Shown piece after piece: positions 1,299 to 33,710 of a stretch of DNA of 37,537 bases. The stretch is from Bacteroidota bacterium (GTDB lineage Bacteria > Bacteroidota > Bacteroidia > Chitinophagales > Chitinophagaceae). Position 1 is the first letter of the stretch; each line of letters begins with the position of its first letter. The DNA lies in the NCBI GenBank assembly GCA_947458915.1, contig CANHAE010000008.1:1-37537 (forward strand), in the 5' to 3' direction. Under the pieces are notes generated by a model, which ran no database searches, was not told the origin of the DNA, and worked only from the letters and a program-made list of their open reading frames with translations. A program made the position numbers and the translations under genes.

Positions 1299-1329
1299 AA
1301 ACGCCCCGATAACTCGGGGCGTTTTTTTT
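1299..1329 (+). terminator. Rho-independent terminator after the isc operon
   Basis: A perfect 11-bp stem (AAACGCCCCGA / TCGGGGCGTTT) with a 4-nt loop runs into a stretch of eight T residues. It lies 38 bp after the iscA stop and just before the promoter-like motif of the next gene. Confidence 0.95.
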
Positions 1330-1330
1330 G

Positions 1331-1338
1331 TAGCTTTG
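1331..1338 (+). promoter_or_regulatory. Bacteroidota -7 promoter motif for gldFG
   Basis: TAGCTTTG matches the TAnnTTTG -7 consensus exactly. It ends only 4 nt before the gldFG ATG, so transcription would start at or next to the start codon. No good -33 TTG is seen because that position is inside the terminator hairpin. Confidence 0.55.
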
Positions 1339-1342
1339 ACGC

Positions 1343-3796
1343 ATGTGGGCAATATGTAAAAAAGAATGGACGCACTATTTTAGTGGTTTAACGGGGTACT
1401 TAATCATTGGATTTTATTTAGTGGTTAATGGCTTGTTTTTGTTTGTGTTACCAAATTATAATATACTAAATTTTGGATACGCCTCCTTGCAAGTATATTT
1501 CGACATAGCCCCTTGGTTTTTATTAGTGCTAATACCGGCTATTACTATGCGTAGTTTTTCGGAGGAGTACAAGCAAGGGACCTATGAAATTTTAAAAAGC
1601 CTTCCAGTAAGCCCATTGTCATTAGTGACGGCTAAATTTTTGGGAGCAATTTTTATTGTCTTAACTGCACTATTGCCAACCATTTTTTATGCGGTAGCTA
1701 TTGATGCATTAAGTAGTGTTGGGGGATTAGACTGGGGCGCAACGCTTGGGGCCTATTTGGGTCTAGTGCTATTAGCTGCAACCTATACTGCTATTGGAAT
1801 TTTTTCAAGTACATTCACCAAGAATAGTTTAATTGCTTTACTTGTATCCATTGTGCTATCCCTCCTTATTTACAAAGGGTTTGATTTACTAAGCACGATT
1901 ACAGTTTTTAAAAATGGCATGGATTTTTATGTTAGTCAATTAGGCTTATCGGCCCATTATGCTAGTGTGAGTAAGGGTGTTTTAGAATTGCGAGATATTA
2001 TATATTTTGGCTCCATTATTATTTTATTTGGGCTAGGTAGCTTAGAAAAAGTTGCAGGGAAAATTAAGTTTGTATTTGTGTTGGTAATATTAATTGCATT
2101 AAATTATGCAAGTGTAATTATTCCTTTACAATTAGATTTAACAAAGGAGCAACGCTATACTTTAAGCAATAGTTCAAAGGAAATTATTAAGGAACTGCAA
2201 GCGCCTGTAAAAATACATGTATACTTGGCGGGTGATTTGCCTCCTTATTATAAAAAAATTGCTGCTTCAACTGAGGGCTTATTATCGAAATTGCATAAAA
2301 TAAATCCTGTTAATATTGAATGGTCCTTCGAAGTGCCAAGCGAAATGTATAAGGATACTGCTTTATATCAATTTTATGATAGTTTATCAAAGCTAGGCTT
2401 GCCAATTGAAAGGCTACAAGACCAAAACGCGCAAACCGATAAGCGTGTTGACCAATTGCTAATCCCAGGTGCATTAGTGGAAGTGCAAGGACAAGTACCT
2501 TTTCCTATTGATTTAAGAAGTAGTAAAAAATATTTCAAGCCATATAATATTGTAAAAGATATCCCAATGGAGGACTTAGAGGCTAGTGCTAACGCAGCAG
2601 AAGCCTTGCTAGAATATAAATTCATACAAGCAATTTATTTATTGAATAGAACAAAAGTGCCCACAATTGCTTATGCCATTGGTAATGGTCAACCCATTGA
2701 TTTAACGGTGAATGATATTGGGGAAACTTTAAAAAACCAATACAATTTAACGGTCTTTGATTTAAAGAAAGGATACCCAGATGCTAAAAAAATTAAAACT
2801 TTACTCATTGTAAAACCTACATTGCCTTTTACCGAATTGGATAAATTAAAATTAGACCAATATGTAATGAATGGTGGTAATATTATATGGGCAATTGACA
2901 AATTACACGCTGAATACGACAGCCTTCAAAAAACAAGTGGATCCTATGTTGCATTTGATAGAGGGCTAGGTTTGGACGATATGCTTTTTAAATATGGGGT
3001 GCGTATTAACCCCAATTTGATACAGGATTTGAATTGTGCAAAATTGCCTTTAGTGGTAGGTGTTCAACCCGATCGTTCTCCGCTTATTCAAAGAATGCCT
3101 TGGCCTTATTACCCCTTTTTAAATGGCAATGAGACGCATCCAATTACACAAAATATGGAAAGGATTTTGTCAATGTTCCCTTCGAGTATTGATACCATAG
3201 CAAATCCTACAATTCGTAAAACTATTTTGTTAACTACGGATACCAACAGCCGATTCATTGCTTCGCCTACACTTGTCACCTTAAATAGTGTGAAGGACGA
3301 GGCCGATATGTATAGTTTTAATAAGCACAACGTAACCATTGCTGCATTACTTGAAGGCAAGTTTAACTCCTCGTTTGCTAATCGAATTTCAAAGGCTACT
3401 ATGGATAGTGTATTTAATTTAACCGGAGTTCCTTTTCAAGCGAAAGCATTAGCGGCTTCAAAACAAATTGTATTATCGGACGCCGATATTATTACTAATA
3501 AAATTGCACGCAACGAGGATGGAAGCCCTAATCCACTTCCCATGGGAATGATCCCCTATGAGGACTACCAGTTTGGAAATAAAACCTTTTTTTTAAATGC
3601 AATTGAGTATTTAAATGAGCCTTCCAGCCTACTAGAAAGCAGGAGTAAGCAAGTCGTATTGCGCTTGTTAAATAAGGAGAAAGTGGAGGAACGAAGGTTG
3701 TTTTGGCAAATCATTTTAGTAATGGGACCAATTGTGATTTTATTATTAATATTCTTTGTATGGACGAAATATAGAAGCACACAATTTGCTGACTAG
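1343..3796 (+). CDS. gldFG: GldF-GldG fusion: gliding-motility-type ABC permease plus auxiliary protein
   Basis: An 817-residue inner-membrane protein. Residues 1 to about 240 form an ABC-2 type permease like GldF, with about six membrane segments and the SFSEEYKQGTYEIL motif. A further membrane helix (FVFVLVILIALNYASVII) starts the second part, about residues 240-817. That part resembles GldG, a large extracytoplasmic auxiliary domain ending in a C-terminal helix (LFWQIILVMGPIVILLLIFF). In Flavobacterium, gldF and gldG are separate genes needed with the ATPase GldA for gliding. Here they are one frame, with no GldA nearby, so the ATPase must be elsewhere. It may serve gliding or another export role; sequence alone does not tell. 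ATG lies 4 nt after the promoter motif. Confidence 0.85.
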   Translation: MWAICKKEWTHYFSGLTGYLIIGFYLVVNGLFLFVLPNYNILNFGYASLQVYFDIAPWFLLVLIPAITMRSFSEEYKQGTYEILKSLPVSPLSLVTAKFLGAIFIVLTALLPTIFYAVAIDALSSVGGLDWGATLGAYLGLVLLAATYTAIGIFSSTFTKNSLIALLVSIVLSLLIYKGFDLLSTITVFKNGMDFYVSQLGLSAHYASVSKGVLELRDIIYFGSIIILFGLGSLEKVAGKIKFVFVLVILIALNYASVIIPLQLDLTKEQRYTLSNSSKEIIKELQAPVKIHVYLAGDLPPYYKKIAASTEGLLSKLHKINPVNIEWSFEVPSEMYKDTALYQFYDSLSKLGLPIERLQDQNAQTDKRVDQLLIPGALVEVQGQVPFPIDLRSSKKYFKPYNIVKDIPMEDLEASANAAEALLEYKFIQAIYLLNRTKVPTIAYAIGNGQPIDLTVNDIGETLKNQYNLTVFDLKKGYPDAKKIKTLLIVKPTLPFTELDKLKLDQYVMNGGNIIWAIDKLHAEYDSLQKTSGSYVAFDRGLGLDDMLFKYGVRINPNLIQDLNCAKLPLVVGVQPDRSPLIQRMPWPYYPFLNGNETHPITQNMERILSMFPSSIDTIANPTIRKTILLTTDTNSRFIASPTLVTLNSVKDEADMYSFNKHNVTIAALLEGKFNSSFANRISKATMDSVFNLTGVPFQAKALAASKQIVLSDADIITNKIARNEDGSPNPLPMGMIPYEDYQFGNKTFFLNAIEYLNEPSSLLESRSKQVVLRLLNKEKVEERRLFWQIILVMGPIVILLLIFFVWTKYRSTQFAD

Positions 3797-3820
3797 GGAA
3801 TCATTACTTAACTTTAACAC

Positions 3821-4786
3821 ATGACAACAGATCAATTAGTTTATCTCGTATTCGGGTGTGTGATTGCAATCGCATTAGTATTAGATTTAGGCTTCCTAAG
3901 TAAAAAAAATGCAATCATTACAATACGACAAGCTTTAAGACAAACTTTTTTTTGGGTATTATTAGCGCTCGGTTTTTTTATATTTATGTGGGTGGAAGAA
4001 GGCCAAAAATTAGCATTAGAATTTTTAAGTGGCTATTTAATGGAGTGGAGTTTAAGTATTGATAATATTTTTGTATTTATTCTTATATTCAGTTCTTTCA
4101 ACGTGAAAGAAAAATACATACCAAGGGTGTTATTAATCGGGATTTTAACGGCAATAATATTACGTGTATTATTTATTACAGTAGGAGTTGCCTTAGTAGC
4201 TAAATTCTCATGGGTGTTATATATATTCGGCGTATTCTTGGTATATACTGGTTATCATATGTTTACTGCCAAGGACGACGAAGCCTTTGACCCACATGAC
4301 TCAAAAGTGTACAAATTTTTAAAACGTTTCTTGCCTATTGGCAATACCGATGGAGATGGGAAATTTGTAATTAAAGAAAACGGAAGGCCTTTATATACTA
4401 GCTTATTTGTTGTGGTTGTATTACTAGCTGCTATTGATATTGTGTTTGCCTTGGACTCTATTCCTGCGGTAATGGGAATTTCTAAAAGTAGCTTAGTCAT
4501 TTACACTTCTAATATTTTTGCAATCCTTGGCTTACGTTCTTTATTCTTTTTACTAAGAGGTGCAGTGAATGAATTCGAGCATTTACAAAAAGGCATTGCT
4601 ATTGTACTTGTGTTTATTGGTGTTAAAATGTTAGGCGAGCACTATATTAACATGTGGATGGATAAAAATACGCAAGTGTTATTATCCTTAATTGTGATTT
4701 TATTTTGTATTTCAGGATCTATTTTTTACTCCATTTTTTCGAAAAGGCAAAAACTGCCAAAGGATTTGAATGACAAGTCTATTTAA
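3821..4786 (+). CDS. TerC family integral membrane protein
   Basis: A 321-residue protein with about eight or nine membrane helices of the TerC/Alx family (Pfam TerC). Family hallmarks are MEWSLSIDNIFVFILIF near residues 73-89 and the VFALDSIPAVMGIS repeat near 210-225. Both carry the acidic/Asn residues thought to bind a metal ion. Members are linked to tellurium resistance, metal (Mn2+) export or loading of exported metalloproteins, so the exact role here is open. No other ter genes are seen, so a tellurite operon is unlikely. It ends 9 bp before murF-alr and may be co-transcribed. A TAACTTTA sequence, one mismatch from the -7 motif, lies just before the ATG. Confidence 0.9.
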   Translation: MTTDQLVYLVFGCVIAIALVLDLGFLSKKNAIITIRQALRQTFFWVLLALGFFIFMWVEEGQKLALEFLSGYLMEWSLSIDNIFVFILIFSSFNVKEKYIPRVLLIGILTAIILRVLFITVGVALVAKFSWVLYIFGVFLVYTGYHMFTAKDDEAFDPHDSKVYKFLKRFLPIGNTDGDGKFVIKENGRPLYTSLFVVVVLLAAIDIVFALDSIPAVMGISKSSLVIYTSNIFAILGLRSLFFLLRGAVNEFEHLQKGIAIVLVFIGVKMLGEHYINMWMDKNTQVLLSLIVILFCISGSIFYSIFSKRQKLPKDLNDKSI

Positions 4787-18651: not shown

Positions 18652-18659
18652 TTTCTTTG
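18652..18659 (+). promoter_or_regulatory. Probable -7 promoter motif upstream of scpA
   Basis: TTTCTTTG matches seven of eight positions of TAnnTTTG and ends 6 nt before the scpA ATG. Nearby on the minus strand is TTATCCACT (18606-18614), one base from a DnaA box. Confidence 0.35.
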
Positions 18660-18665
18660 TAGCCT

Positions 18666-19550
18666 ATGAGTCAGCATGCTAATTATTCGATTAAAGTGGA
18701 CCAGTTTGAGGGGCCTTTTGATCTTTTACTTTTCTTCATTGAAAGGGACGAGATGGATATTTATAATATTCAGATCACAAAAATCATTAAAGATTTCTTG
18801 GACTTTATTCACGGCCAAGACAAATTAAATATTGAATTAAGTAGCGAATTTATACTTTTCGTATCTACGTTAATGCGTATTAAAGCAAAATTATTATTGC
18901 CGAGAAAAGAAATTGATTCTTCTGGAAATGAAATTGATCCAAGGCAAGAATTAATAGATAAAATATTAGAATACAAAAAGTATAAGGAAGCCGCAGTGCA
19001 GATGGCCGACCTTGAGTCACTTAGGATGTTAATGATGAAGCGTGGCAATATTCAAAAAGAAATGTCATTGGTTGGGGAAGAAGCAGCGGAAGGTACAGAA
19101 CTACAAACAGTTACTTTGTTCAAATTAATGAAGTCTTTTGAGAAAGTTATGACTCGTTTGCAGGATCGTCAAAATAAGCCAGTACACACTGTGGTTAGGT
19201 ATAATTATACCATGGAAGGAAGTAGGGAATATTTATTAAAGTCGGTGCAAGAAGAAAAAACGGTAGCTTTTGAAAAAGTATTTGATATTTGTGAGGACCG
19301 CGTGCATGCTTTATTTCTTTTCTTATCAATACTAGAATTAGCGCAACAAAAATACATGCGCTTGTCTGTTGGGGAAGGTCGAAATAATTTCATAATCGAA
19401 TGGAATGAGAACAGGGAGGACGATTTAGAACCTGGCTATATTGAGCCTGTTGACGCATACGAAACACCTAATTTGGACGCCTTTAAGGATGAACCAAATG
19501 ATACAGCAACATTAACAGGAGAAGGAGATTTTGACCCTAGTTTGAATTAG
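18666..19550 (+). CDS. scpA: Segregation and condensation protein A (kleisin)
   Basis: A 294-residue kleisin that bridges the heads of the SMC dimer in the SMC-ScpA-ScpB condensin, acting in chromosome organisation and segregation. The N-terminal VDQFEGPFDLLLFFIERDEMDIYNI is the classic ScpA opening, followed by LMRIKAKLLLPR. The C-terminal winged-helix region lies near residues 195-250. It ends in an acidic tail of about 40 residues. scpB and smc are not adjacent. The stop lies 25 bp from the stop of convergent dxs, with no terminator hairpin between them. Confidence 0.93.
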   Translation: MSQHANYSIKVDQFEGPFDLLLFFIERDEMDIYNIQITKIIKDFLDFIHGQDKLNIELSSEFILFVSTLMRIKAKLLLPRKEIDSSGNEIDPRQELIDKILEYKKYKEAAVQMADLESLRMLMMKRGNIQKEMSLVGEEAAEGTELQTVTLFKLMKSFEKVMTRLQDRQNKPVHTVVRYNYTMEGSREYLLKSVQEEKTVAFEKVFDICEDRVHALFLFLSILELAQQKYMRLSVGEGRNNFIIEWNENREDDLEPGYIEPVDAYETPNLDAFKDEPNDTATLTGEGDFDPSLN

Positions 19551-21634: not shown

Positions 21635-21642
21635 TAAATTTG
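21635..21642 (+). promoter_or_regulatory. -7 promoter motif upstream of the LytS-type kinase gene
   Basis: TAAATTTG is an exact match to TAnnTTTG and ends 5 nt before the ATG, which suggests a leaderless transcript. Confidence 0.5.
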
Positions 21643-21647
21643 AGTAG

Positions 21648-22760
21648 ATGAAAAAACTGCACTCCTCTTTTTATTGGACATGCCAGCTGGCAGGGTGGTT
21701 TAGCTATGGCCTAACCATCATATTTTTCTCCTATATTCTTGATAAGCAGTTAAGTCCTATTTTTTATCCTAGAATGGCTATTAATATTATTCTTGGGTTA
21801 CTAATCACGCATTTATTAAGGACCGCAATGTTGCGTTTTGGAATGCGCCCGCCAATGACATCGAATAAGTGGTGGAAGTTATTTTTCCTATTTATCGTAT
21901 CCGCAATTTTGTATAGCGCAGTTGCCAGTTTTATTTTTGAAATTTTTAAGTTGTATGATGCTGGCAAATCAATGACAAACTATTCGTTGCCCGATTTATC
22001 TATTCAACAAATTACGCAAGACTGGCGTTCTGCAAGAGTAGTAAAAAGGTTTTTAATAAGCTTAATATTTGATACGCCAATTTTATTAATATGGATGTCT
22101 GTTTATATTCTTTGGCATTATATTGAATTTTCAAATGCAGAAGAAATACAAAAAATTAAACTAGAAAGTACGATTAAGGAACTGCAACTTAAAACCATTA
22201 AGTCACAAATTAATCCTCACTTTATATTTAATGCACTAAATAGCATACGAGCATTGGTGGACGAAAATCCAATACGTTCAAGACAAGCCATAACCGAGTT
22301 AAGTAATATTTTACGTAGCAGTATATTAGTGGATAAAGTAGAAATTGCACCTTTCGAAAAAGAATTAAATATTGTAAAAGATTATTTAGCACTCGAATAC
22401 ATTCGTTTTGAAGACCGGCTTAAAATAGAATATGATATTGACGCGAATACACTTGTCAATCAAATGCCTCCCATGATGCTACAAACCCTTGTAGAAAATG
22501 CTATAAAACATGGACTAGGAAAGCATGCGGGAGACTGCACAATAAAAATCAGTTCTAAATACGAAGCTCAAAAACATGTGCTAGTAGTTGAAAATACAGG
22601 CCATTTGGCAGCGCAAGAACAGGGAGGGTTTGGACTGAAAAGCACAAGAGACAGATTAAATATTTTGTACAGAGGCAATGCTCAATTTGATATTTACCAA
22701 GGCCTTCCTAATTTAGTGACTGCAAAATTAGTCATCCCAATTTCAAATTTTAAAAACTAA
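21648..22760 (+). CDS. LytS/YehU-type sensor histidine kinase
   Basis: A 370-residue membrane kinase. Four helices (about 8-30, 38-60, 76-100, 135-158) precede a His_kinase domain. The phospho-accepting residue is His191 in QINPHFIFNALNSIRALV. The ATP-binding part has the N-box LVENAIKHGLG and a G-box GGFGLKSTRDRLNILY. There is no large periplasmic domain, so any signal is likely sensed in or at the membrane. The LytTR regulator starts 3 bp after the stop, so the pair form one two-component system. The regulated process is not shown; in other bacteria such pairs control cell-wall, pyruvate or peptide responses. Confidence 0.93.
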   Translation: MKKLHSSFYWTCQLAGWFSYGLTIIFFSYILDKQLSPIFYPRMAINIILGLLITHLLRTAMLRFGMRPPMTSNKWWKLFFLFIVSAILYSAVASFIFEIFKLYDAGKSMTNYSLPDLSIQQITQDWRSARVVKRFLISLIFDTPILLIWMSVYILWHYIEFSNAEEIQKIKLESTIKELQLKTIKSQINPHFIFNALNSIRALVDENPIRSRQAITELSNILRSSILVDKVEIAPFEKELNIVKDYLALEYIRFEDRLKIEYDIDANTLVNQMPPMMLQTLVENAIKHGLGKHAGDCTIKISSKYEAQKHVLVVENTGHLAAQEQGGFGLKSTRDRLNILYRGNAQFDIYQGLPNLVTAKLVIPISNFKN

Positions 22761-30641: not shown

Positions 30642-32780
30642 TTAAGCAATAGTACTACCCGCTGCGATTGCTTCGCTTGGGCTTACAAAGTATAATTTTC
30701 CAGCAGCATCTTCTGCCATTAGTATCATTCCTTTGCTTTCAATACCGCGCATTTTTCTTGGCGCAAGGTTCGCAACAATTGTCACTTGTTTGCCCACTAT
30801 ATCTTCGGGTTTAAAATGCATTGCAATGCCAGACAGTATGGTCCTTTGCTCAAACCCTAAGTCTACTAATAGTTCAAGTAGTTTATCCGCTTTCTCTACT
30901 TTCTTCGCTTCTATAATGGTGCCAACTCGTAAATCAATTTTCCCAAAATCATCAAATACGATTTCAGGTTTTAATTCATTTTTTGTTCCTTCTTTATCGG
31001 CTCCAGTTGGAGTTGTTACAGGGGTGGTTTCCATGTTTATTTTTTTTGCAGCAGCGTTTGCGCTTAGCTGTGTTAATTCCGCTTCAATTTCTGCGTCTTC
31101 AATTTTTCTAAATAGTAATTCAGGAGGGCGTAAGGTATAGCCTACTTTTAATAAGTTAAACTCGCCTGCATTTTCCCACTCTAACATCTTAGGCACCACT
31201 TTCATAAGGTGACACATTTTTTGAGCGGTAAATGGCAAGAATGGGTTAATTAAAATAGCAAGGTTTGCAGATAGTTGCAAACAGCCATGCATACAATTAT
31301 CAATCTTAGCTTGCGCCGTAGGGTCGGTATCAATATTTTTTGCTAAAATCCAAGGCTCTTTCTTTTGCATGTACTGGTTACCAATACGCGCTAAATTAAT
31401 GACTTCAAATTGAGCTTCTCTAAATTTATACAACTCCAGTAACCCAGTAATTTTCTCTTTCGCATCTTTCACTGTTAGCAACAAAGCGTGGTCCTCGTCA
31501 TCTAAATATTCAGGATGAATTTTAGGTACTTTGCTATTGCATAATTTATGCATCAACACCCAAGTTCTGTTTACAAAGTTGGCGAATATGCTTACTAATT
31601 CACCATTCACCGATTCTTGAAAACCTTTCCAAGTAAATTCACTATCCTTTGATTCAGGGGCAATAGCAGTTAAATAAAAACGTAAACTATCTGCTAGTCC
31701 GGTTCCTCCATTCTCTGGTTTAATCCATTTATTGATGTAGTCATCCATTTCGATACTCCAACCTCTTGAAGTACTCATCTTGTCTCCCTCTAAATTCATA
31801 AACTCATTGGCAGGCACATTTTCTGGTAAAATATTCCCATGCAATTTTAACATCACAGGAAAAATAATACAATGAAAAACAATATTGTCTTTTCCAATAA
31901 AGTGCACCAGCTTAGTTTCAGGATCGTTCCAATAAGGTTTCCAGTCCTTATTGTTATTAATAGCCCATTGTTTAGTTGCACTAATATATCCAATAGGTGC
32001 ATCAAACCAAACATATAAAACCTTGCCGTCTCCTCCTGCCACAGGTACTTTAACGCCCCAGTCTAAATCACGTGTAACTGCTCTAGGCTGCAAACCACCT
32101 TCAATCCAGCTTTTACACTGACCTATTACAGCCGGTCTCCAATCGTTTGCGTGTTCTGCTAAAATCCATTTGCGTAAAAAATCTTCATGTCTATTTAATG
32201 GAAGGTACCAATGCGTGGTCTCCTTTTTAATAGGAGCATTGCCACTTAAGGTACTTACCGGATTTATTAATTCCTCAGGGCTCAAACTCTTGCCACATTT
32301 TTCACATTGGTCTCCGTAGGCTTCTGAATGTCCACAGTTAGGACAAGTGCCCTTAATATAACGGTCGGCTAAAAAAGTATTAGCGGCTTCGTCAAAGTAT
32401 TGTTCCGATGTTTTAGTTTCCAAATCACCTTTCGCTTCTAGGTCCTTAAAAAATTCGCTTGCAGTTTCGTGGTGTAAAGGATCGCTTGTGCGATGATAAA
32501 TATCAAATCCGATTCCAAGGTCCTTAAAATTCTGTTCTATAATTGGATGGTACTTGTCAATAATAGCTTGTGCAGTAGTGCCTTCCTTTGTTGCTTGAAT
32601 TGGAATGGCAGTGCCATGCTCGTCACTACCGCAAACAAATACCACGTCTCTTTTTTGAGCCTTTAAATAACGTGCATATATGTCGGCAGGTAAATAAGCG
32701 CCTGCTAGGTGACCAATATGTTTAAGCCCATTAGCATAAGGAAGGGCTGCAGTAATCAAATATCTTTTTGGCGTGTTCAT
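30642..32780 (-). CDS. metG: Methionyl-tRNA synthetase with C-terminal tRNA-binding domain
   Basis: A 712-residue class I synthetase that charges tRNA-Met. It shows the HIGH region ALPYANGLKHIGHLAGAYLP, a zinc knuckle of C-x2-C-x9-C-x2-C type (CPNCG, CEKCG), the KMSTS loop in GDKMSTSRGWS, an anticodon domain, and an EMAP/Trbp111-like tRNA-binding domain at the end (DLRVGTIIEAKKVEKADKL). The track start is 45 codons too early and would overlap the divergent LD-carboxypeptidase; MNTPKRYLITAALPYANG is the normal N-terminus. An exact -7 motif ends 5 nt before this ATG. The family length with this extra domain is about 680-720, which fits. Confidence 0.97.
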   Translation of the reverse strand: MNTPKRYLITAALPYANGLKHIGHLAGAYLPADIYARYLKAQKRDVVFVCGSDEHGTAIPIQATKEGTTAQAIIDKYHPIIEQNFKDLGIGFDIYHRTSDPLHHETASEFFKDLEAKGDLETKTSEQYFDEAANTFLADRYIKGTCPNCGHSEAYGDQCEKCGKSLSPEELINPVSTLSGNAPIKKETTHWYLPLNRHEDFLRKWILAEHANDWRPAVIGQCKSWIEGGLQPRAVTRDLDWGVKVPVAGGDGKVLYVWFDAPIGYISATKQWAINNNKDWKPYWNDPETKLVHFIGKDNIVFHCIIFPVMLKLHGNILPENVPANEFMNLEGDKMSTSRGWSIEMDDYINKWIKPENGGTGLADSLRFYLTAIAPESKDSEFTWKGFQESVNGELVSIFANFVNRTWVLMHKLCNSKVPKIHPEYLDDEDHALLLTVKDAKEKITGLLELYKFREAQFEVINLARIGNQYMQKKEPWILAKNIDTDPTAQAKIDNCMHGCLQLSANLAILINPFLPFTAQKMCHLMKVVPKMLEWENAGEFNLLKVGYTLRPPELLFRKIEDAEIEAELTQLSANAAAKKINMETTPVTTPTGADKEGTKNELKPEIVFDDFGKIDLRVGTIIEAKKVEKADKLLELLVDLGFEQRTILSGIAMHFKPEDIVGKQVTIVANLAPRKMRGIESKGMILMAEDAAGKLYFVSPSEAIAAGSTIA

Positions 32781-32785
32781 TCCTG

Positions 32786-32793
32786 CAAAAGTA
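32786..32793 (-). promoter_or_regulatory. -7 promoter motif upstream of metG
   Basis: On the minus strand this reads TACTTTTG, an exact TAnnTTTG match, with a TTG 20 nt further upstream in a good -33 position. That -33 element would lie inside the first codons of the divergent gene. The motif is 5 nt from the metG ATG, so the mRNA may be leaderless. Confidence 0.55.
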
Positions 32794-32807
32794 CTTAATA
32801 TTGTGGT

Positions 32808-33710
32808 ATGATTCAACCTCCAAACCTGAAGCCCGGAGACACTATTGGGATAGTTTGCCCCGCCGGCGCAATTGATATAAAAATTGTCCAAAATTGTATG
32901 AAAACACTCCAGCAATGGGGGTACAAAGTGCTTTTAGGAGCTACGGTGGAAGCAAAACATCATTCCTTTGCGGGAACGGATAGCGAAAGGGCGGCAGACT
33001 TGCAAAAAATGCTCAACGACCCTTCCATAAATGCCATTTTATGCGGCAGGGGTGGATACGGGGTAAGTAGAATTATTAATGAATTGGACTTTAGCTTATT
33101 CAATAAGCATCCTAAATGGGTTGTAGGCTTTAGTGATATAACCGTATTACATGCGGCAATTCAAAAGCAAAATTGTATGAGTATTCACGGCCCCATGGCA
33201 GCCGCATTTGGCAAAGGGTTAGAAGGAGAAATTTTCACTGATTCCTTAAAAGCCTTGTTGGAAGGGCGAAATATGGAATTAGCGGCTAAACCACATGCGT
33301 TAAATACGCAAGGTAAGGCGGTTGGTATTTTAATTGGAGGGAACCTTTGTTTAGTGGCCCATTTAGTAGGTTCAAAATATGCATTTGACACTAAAGGGAA
33401 AATATTGTTCCTAGAAGACGTAGGTGAATACCACTACAATTTAGACAGGTTAATGATACAAATAAAAAATGCAGGCTTGCTGGAGGACTTGACAGGGCTA
33501 GTTGTTGGAGGTTTTACCGACATGAAGGACAATTCAACCGATTTTGGAGCGACTGCATTTGAAATTATAGCGGCGCACACTGCGGAATATGCTTATCCAA
33601 TTTGTTTCAATTTTCCTATAAGCCATGGATTGAATAATTTTGCTGTAAAAGAAGGAGGCATGTGTGAGTTGAAAATTAATAATGACTTAGTTACTTTAAA
33701 AGAAGTTTAA
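32808..33710 (+). CDS. LD-carboxypeptidase (peptidase family S66)
   Basis: A 300-residue S66 serine peptidase, LdcA-like, that removes the terminal D-Ala from muropeptide tetrapeptides during peptidoglycan recycling. The N-terminal LKPGDTIGIVCPAGAI, the RGGYG motif and the Ser nucleophile in VGFSDITVLH are visible. The acidic member of the triad is in LFLEDVGEYHYNLDR and the His in ISHGLNNFAV. There is no signal peptide, which agrees with a cytoplasmic recycling enzyme. MccF-like self-immunity proteins belong to the same family and are a less likely alternative. The ATG lies only 27 bp from the divergent metG start. Confidence 0.92.
   Translation: MIQPPNLKPGDTIGIVCPAGAIDIKIVQNCMKTLQQWGYKVLLGATVEAKHHSFAGTDSERAADLQKMLNDPSINAILCGRGGYGVSRIINELDFSLFNKHPKWVVGFSDITVLHAAIQKQNCMSIHGPMAAAFGKGLEGEIFTDSLKALLEGRNMELAAKPHALNTQGKAVGILIGGNLCLVAHLVGSKYAFDTKGKILFLEDVGEYHYNLDRLMIQIKNAGLLEDLTGLVVGGFTDMKDNSTDFGATAFEIIAAHTAEYAYPICFNFPISHGLNNFAVKEGGMCELKINNDLVTLKEV

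Follow-up and report, generated by a model that had tools for sequence, protein, structure and literature searches.

Conserved sigma-A-type promoter boxes abutting start codons point to leaderless mRNAs in a Sediminibacterium genome

The window analyzed here, a stretch of 37,537 nucleotides, makes up the whole of contig C8 in a freshwater Sediminibacterium MAG with a genome of 1.9 Mb that is 83% complete. Judged by gldFG, the named relatives nearest to it are Sediminibacterium and other Chitinophagaceae MAGs, with identity of up to 97%. Several genes of the window carry a -7 promoter box of the form TAnnTTTG, or a near match to it, only 4-6 nt ahead of the start codon, which is ATG in all the window cases. 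The gap is defined as the number of nucleotides between the box and the leftmost ATG. The features are listed below.

1299..1329, + strand: intrinsic terminator behind the suf-type genes that lie upstream (stem of 11 bp, -19.2 kcal/mol, z -5.3; terminator scan)
1331..1338, + strand: gldFG -7 box TAGCTTTG, exact TAnnTTTG, gap 4 (gap 4-6 in 72/77 relatives)
1343..3796, + strand: gldFG fusion ORF (ABC-2 permease + ABC_transp_aux), predicted leaderless, ATG at 1343
3809..3816, + strand: TerC/Alx gene -7 box TAACTTTA, gap 4 (TTTA/TTTG box at gap 3-5 in 55/77 relatives)
3821..4786, + strand: TerC/Alx family membrane protein gene (terC), predicted leaderless, ATG at 3821
18652..18659, + strand: scpA variant -7 box TTTCTTTG, gap 6, with T instead of A at position 2 as its single mismatch
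18666..19550, + strand: scpA, predicted leaderless or nearly so, ATG at 18666
21635..21642, + strand: LytS-type kinase -7 box TAAATTTG, exact TAnnTTTG, gap 5 (gap 3-7 in 28/30 genus loci)
21648..22760, + strand: LytS-type histidine kinase gene (His_kinase PF06580), predicted leaderless, ATG at 21648
30642..32780, - strand: metG, predicted leaderless, ATG at 32780
32786..32793, - strand: metG -7 box TACTTTTG, exact TAnnTTTG, gap 5 (18 genomes with gap 5, eight with gap 9-40)
32796..32803, + strand: S66 peptidase gene near-match -7 box TAATATTG, gap 4 (kept in 13 genomes that also have a gap-5 metG box)
32808..33710, + strand: S66 LD-carboxypeptidase gene, possibly leaderless, box at gap 4

The initial annotation had placed TAnnTTTG 4, 5 and 5 nt before the ATGs of gldFG, the kinase gene and metG, and 6 nt before that of scpA with one mismatch, and we verified all of these positions; the scpA mismatch falls at the second base of the box. 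The distance from the -7 box to the transcription start is 4-5 nt in F. johnsoniae (PMC6847099), and the F. psychrophilum box occupies -12 to -5 (PMC9723704). With this box spacing, a gap of 4-6 would put +1 at the A of the ATG or 1-2 nt before it. In the mechanism we propose, these genes would be driven by Bacteroidota-type housekeeping promoters of sigma-A, with TAnnTTTG or a near variant of it as a -7 box placed 4-6 nt ahead of the start codon. RNA polymerase would start at the A of the ATG or 1-2 nt upstream to make a leaderless mRNA, and the ribosome would recognize the 5'-terminal AUG rather than an upstream A-rich leader. The spacing step is carried over from other species, and we infer the exact 5' ends and leaderless translation on that basis.

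For the positional survey, genes were called in 813 kb sampled from the window genome and 550 ATG-started genes were scored. Over the window as a whole, TAnnTTTG is not enriched (60 matches against 61 expected), as would suit a chance match in AT-rich DNA; only its position is enriched. The motif stands at gap 4 in 16 genes and at gap 5 in six, is almost missing at gap 8-13, and forms a second, broad peak at gap 14-23, which corresponds to leadered genes with ordinary leaders of ~10-19 nt. Shuffled upstream regions yielded 0.87 genes at gap 4-5, against the 22 observed, and with the window excluded the box was found at gap 4 in 15 of 525 genes over a distal background of 0.58 per position (Poisson p ~1e-16). 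The promoter core spacing that would place +1 on the start codon is commoner than chance, with its peak at gap 4-5. The same bimodal profile recurs in three more Sediminibacterium samples and is weak in a Lacibacter sample; with five samples pooled, 36 genes had TAnnTTTG at gap 4. TAnnTTTA likewise peaks at gap 4 (27 genes in the pooled samples, five of them operon-internal), and a gap 4-6 peak was looked for with TAnnTTG, one base shorter than TAnnTTTG, and none was seen. The strong positional peak, the shuffled and window-free controls and the conservation described below refute chance for the class and make it an extremely unlikely account of the window cases, although single genes beyond the conserved ones could be chance matches, with ~1.7 such matches to be expected in the set of 23 operon-first genes whose gap is 3-6.

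The position of the box also places it inside the ribosome footprint, and Bacteroidota are known to use upstream sequence preferences (PMC6847099), raising the alternative that it is a translation signal, either Kozak-like or S1-binding, and not a promoter. However, operon-internal starts need translation signals too, and they nearly lack the box (TTTG at gap 3-5 in only 6 of 352). The A-rich preference before the ATG falls instead of rising, the A content at -4 to -1 being 17% in gap-4 genes vs 32% (p = 1e-4), a weakening of the A-rich bias. In the window cases, the 4-6 nt left between box and start leave no room for a ribosome-binding signal. Comparison of two sister clades bears on this alternative as well: the metG box lies at gap 5 in 18 of 26 genomes and at gap 9-40 in the eight of the sister clade, and the scpA box TTTCTTTG lies at gap 5-6 from an ATG in 20 of 29 genomes and 14-21 nt from a GTG start in eight other genomes, again of the sister clade. 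Since the box of metG and scpA persists while the start codon moves, it appears to act as a promoter and not as a ribosome signal, and we regard a translation signal as a highly improbable explanation. Judged by its motif, scpA is a weak candidate, its box also lacking the nearly invariant A at -11; the conservation suggests that the case is a valid one.

At gldFG, the T-tract of the terminator runs right up to the -7 box, so that any start between the T-tract and the ATG gives a leader of at most ~13 nt. The upstream sequence and the terminator vary among relatives, while TAGCTTTG, or a similar sequence such as TAGTTTTG, is kept at gap 4-6 in 72 of 77 gldFG loci; in three Lacibacter-like loci the box is at gap 7. 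The cultured S. salmoneum has the conserved gldFG box too. The G at the third position of TAGCTTTG is virtually absent from the F. johnsoniae promoter set. By direct reading, the region ~19-21 nt ahead of the gldFG box showed no clear -33 TTTG element; we did not treat this element as required because it is barely visible in the F. johnsoniae data too (PMC6847099). In most genomes of the genus, gldF and gldG form one fused ORF, and in other families of the order they are mostly two genes.

The start codons of metG and the divergent S66 gene are 27 bp apart (window 32780-32808), and their facing -7-like boxes are separated by 2 bp, implying that, if both are used, polymerase could sit on only one at a time. 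The S66 case was overlooked by the initial annotation and is weaker than that of terC, which had been overlooked as well. Each of the two boxes has one mismatch to TAnnTTTG, which for TAATATTG falls within the TTT, yet each is conserved. A similar arrangement was seen elsewhere (L033:8185-8230), where genes for an RluA-family pseudouridine synthase and lipB diverge with 44 bp between their start codons, each of the two having TAnnTTTG at gap 4; the class is kept in Lacibacter.

Bacterial genes often have several transcription starts, and stronger upstream promoters might coexist with the proximal boxes so that most of the mRNA would be leadered. We consider this quite unlikely, because a strong terminator directly precedes gldFG and metG lies only 27 bp from the divergent gene, though further promoters upstream may yield some longer mRNAs. 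A different way to obtain a leadered mRNA from a real promoter box would be translation from a downstream codon, and the kinase coding score, taken by itself, favored a start 126 nt further on. Against this, the first residues are conserved in gldFG (MWAICKKE), metG (PKRYL) and terC (TDQ) in the presence of synonymous changes, and a downstream start is therefore very unlikely. In five kinase orthologues (L158, L163, L164, L165 and L168), the box at gap 4 is followed by GTG in place of ATG. These would be leaderless GTG starts; GTG fits leaderless translation less well than ATG in model bacteria.

The leaderless reading that the initial annotation had drawn from motifs 4-6 nt before the ATG gains support from the positional peak, the near absence of the box at operon-internal starts, its conservation in the genus and the reduced A-richness before the ATG, all read from DNA. 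Considering the box and its spacing, its excess over chance, how well it is conserved and how it shifts between clades relative to the start codon, as found in this analysis, we put the probability at roughly 87% that sigma-A promoters with a box 4-6 nt from the start codon, giving rise to leaderless mRNAs, are the correct explanation.

To estimate how common such starts may be, boxes with an exact TTTG at gap 3-6, or with TTTA at gap 4, were tallied and the background was subtracted. Leaderless mRNAs mapped by RNA-seq make up 5.5% in F. psychrophilum (PMC9723704), and ~3.7% in B. thetaiotaomicron have a 5' UTR under 10 nt (PMC7366714). Among the four Sediminibacterium samples, the leaderless-type share of operon-first genes was 5.8-9.9%, and for Lacibacter it was 4.0%; this share misses promoters further from the consensus and is not strictly comparable with the mapped 5.5% and 3.7%. 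Across the class Bacteroidia, gap-4 counts exceeded gap-10 counts in 49 of 49 genomes, the window genome included; for families outside the class, the gap-4/gap-10 ratio was 1.06 in one and 1.21 in another. Genus g30 probably corresponds to Flavobacterium, since the uS3 of g30 matches chain 7jil_h of 7JIL, the F. johnsoniae ribosome, almost perfectly. The excess of ~47 gap-4 sites per genome in this genus is close to the ~49 leaderless mRNAs (5.5% of 890) of F. psychrophilum, supporting the method. In family f39, also outside the class (genomes G076, G108, G135, G150, G154, G162, G185 and G193), gap-4 sites are 4.5 times as frequent as gap-10 sites and the gap-19 excess is almost nil, a profile that looks as if leaderless starts dominate. 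Genome streamlining was considered as a general cause; the proximal share of boxed promoters was 22-31%, with no clear order between small and large Sediminibacterium genomes, and streamlining is thus unsupported in that role, though metG and scpA differ by clade.

The 41 leaderless candidates of the sampled genome are mostly housekeeping genes and include metG, hisS, trmD, trmB, pth, gatB, mnmE, cca and tsaE as well as folD, guaB, dut, uppS, lipB and porU. Genes related to tRNA account for 9 of the 41, compared with 3 of 40 leadered genes (p = 0.06, not significant), so that a tRNA-related enrichment is suggestive only. When orthologues were followed through the sampled genomes, 17 of 23 leaderless genes remained leaderless and 3 of 53 leadered genes looked leaderless (p = 2e-9). 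A broader scenario, which we offer tentatively and hold to be possible but somewhat doubtful, is that leaderless starts in Bacteroidia are old and stably inherited, that genes enter or leave the class as the start codon slides relative to a fixed promoter, and that in compact freshwater Sediminibacterium such starts permit extreme packing, with the promoter abutting a terminator at gldFG and 27 bp shared by metG and S66; they may also favor tRNA-related housekeeping genes.

Bacteroidota mRNAs generally lack a Shine-Dalgarno sequence, which makes it a genuine question how their ribosomes initiate on leaderless mRNAs. The genes described here offer a conserved, named set for testing leaderless initiation, including natural pairs, metG and scpA, which appear leaderless in one clade but have apparently leadered orthologues in the other. 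The exact matches in the window (gldFG, the kinase gene and metG) share the -7 box of the Bacteroidota sigma-A promoter (TTTG / TAnnTTTG), which has been revised to TAHHTTTG in F. johnsoniae (PMC6847099), and the window genome additionally uses TAnnTTTA at gap 4. The leaderless mRNAs mapped in other Bacteroidota have the same promoter type and belong to the same minority class, and the B. thetaiotaomicron examples also take in sensor kinases and transporters. Whereas those comparators were mapped, the Sediminibacterium cases were read from sequence alone in an uncultured organism, with the conservation of orthologues. The TA-led genes of Actinobacteria and Deinococcus-Thermus, with a -10 type box ~10-12 nt before the start codon, were likewise read as leaderless, but their box differs, being TANNNT of the sigma-70 type, and the same survey put many Bacteroidetes genes among the 'atypical' ones (PMC3160421). 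The predicted leaderless starts in the window thus exemplify, in conserved form, a minority class that is already known and not a new kind of system.
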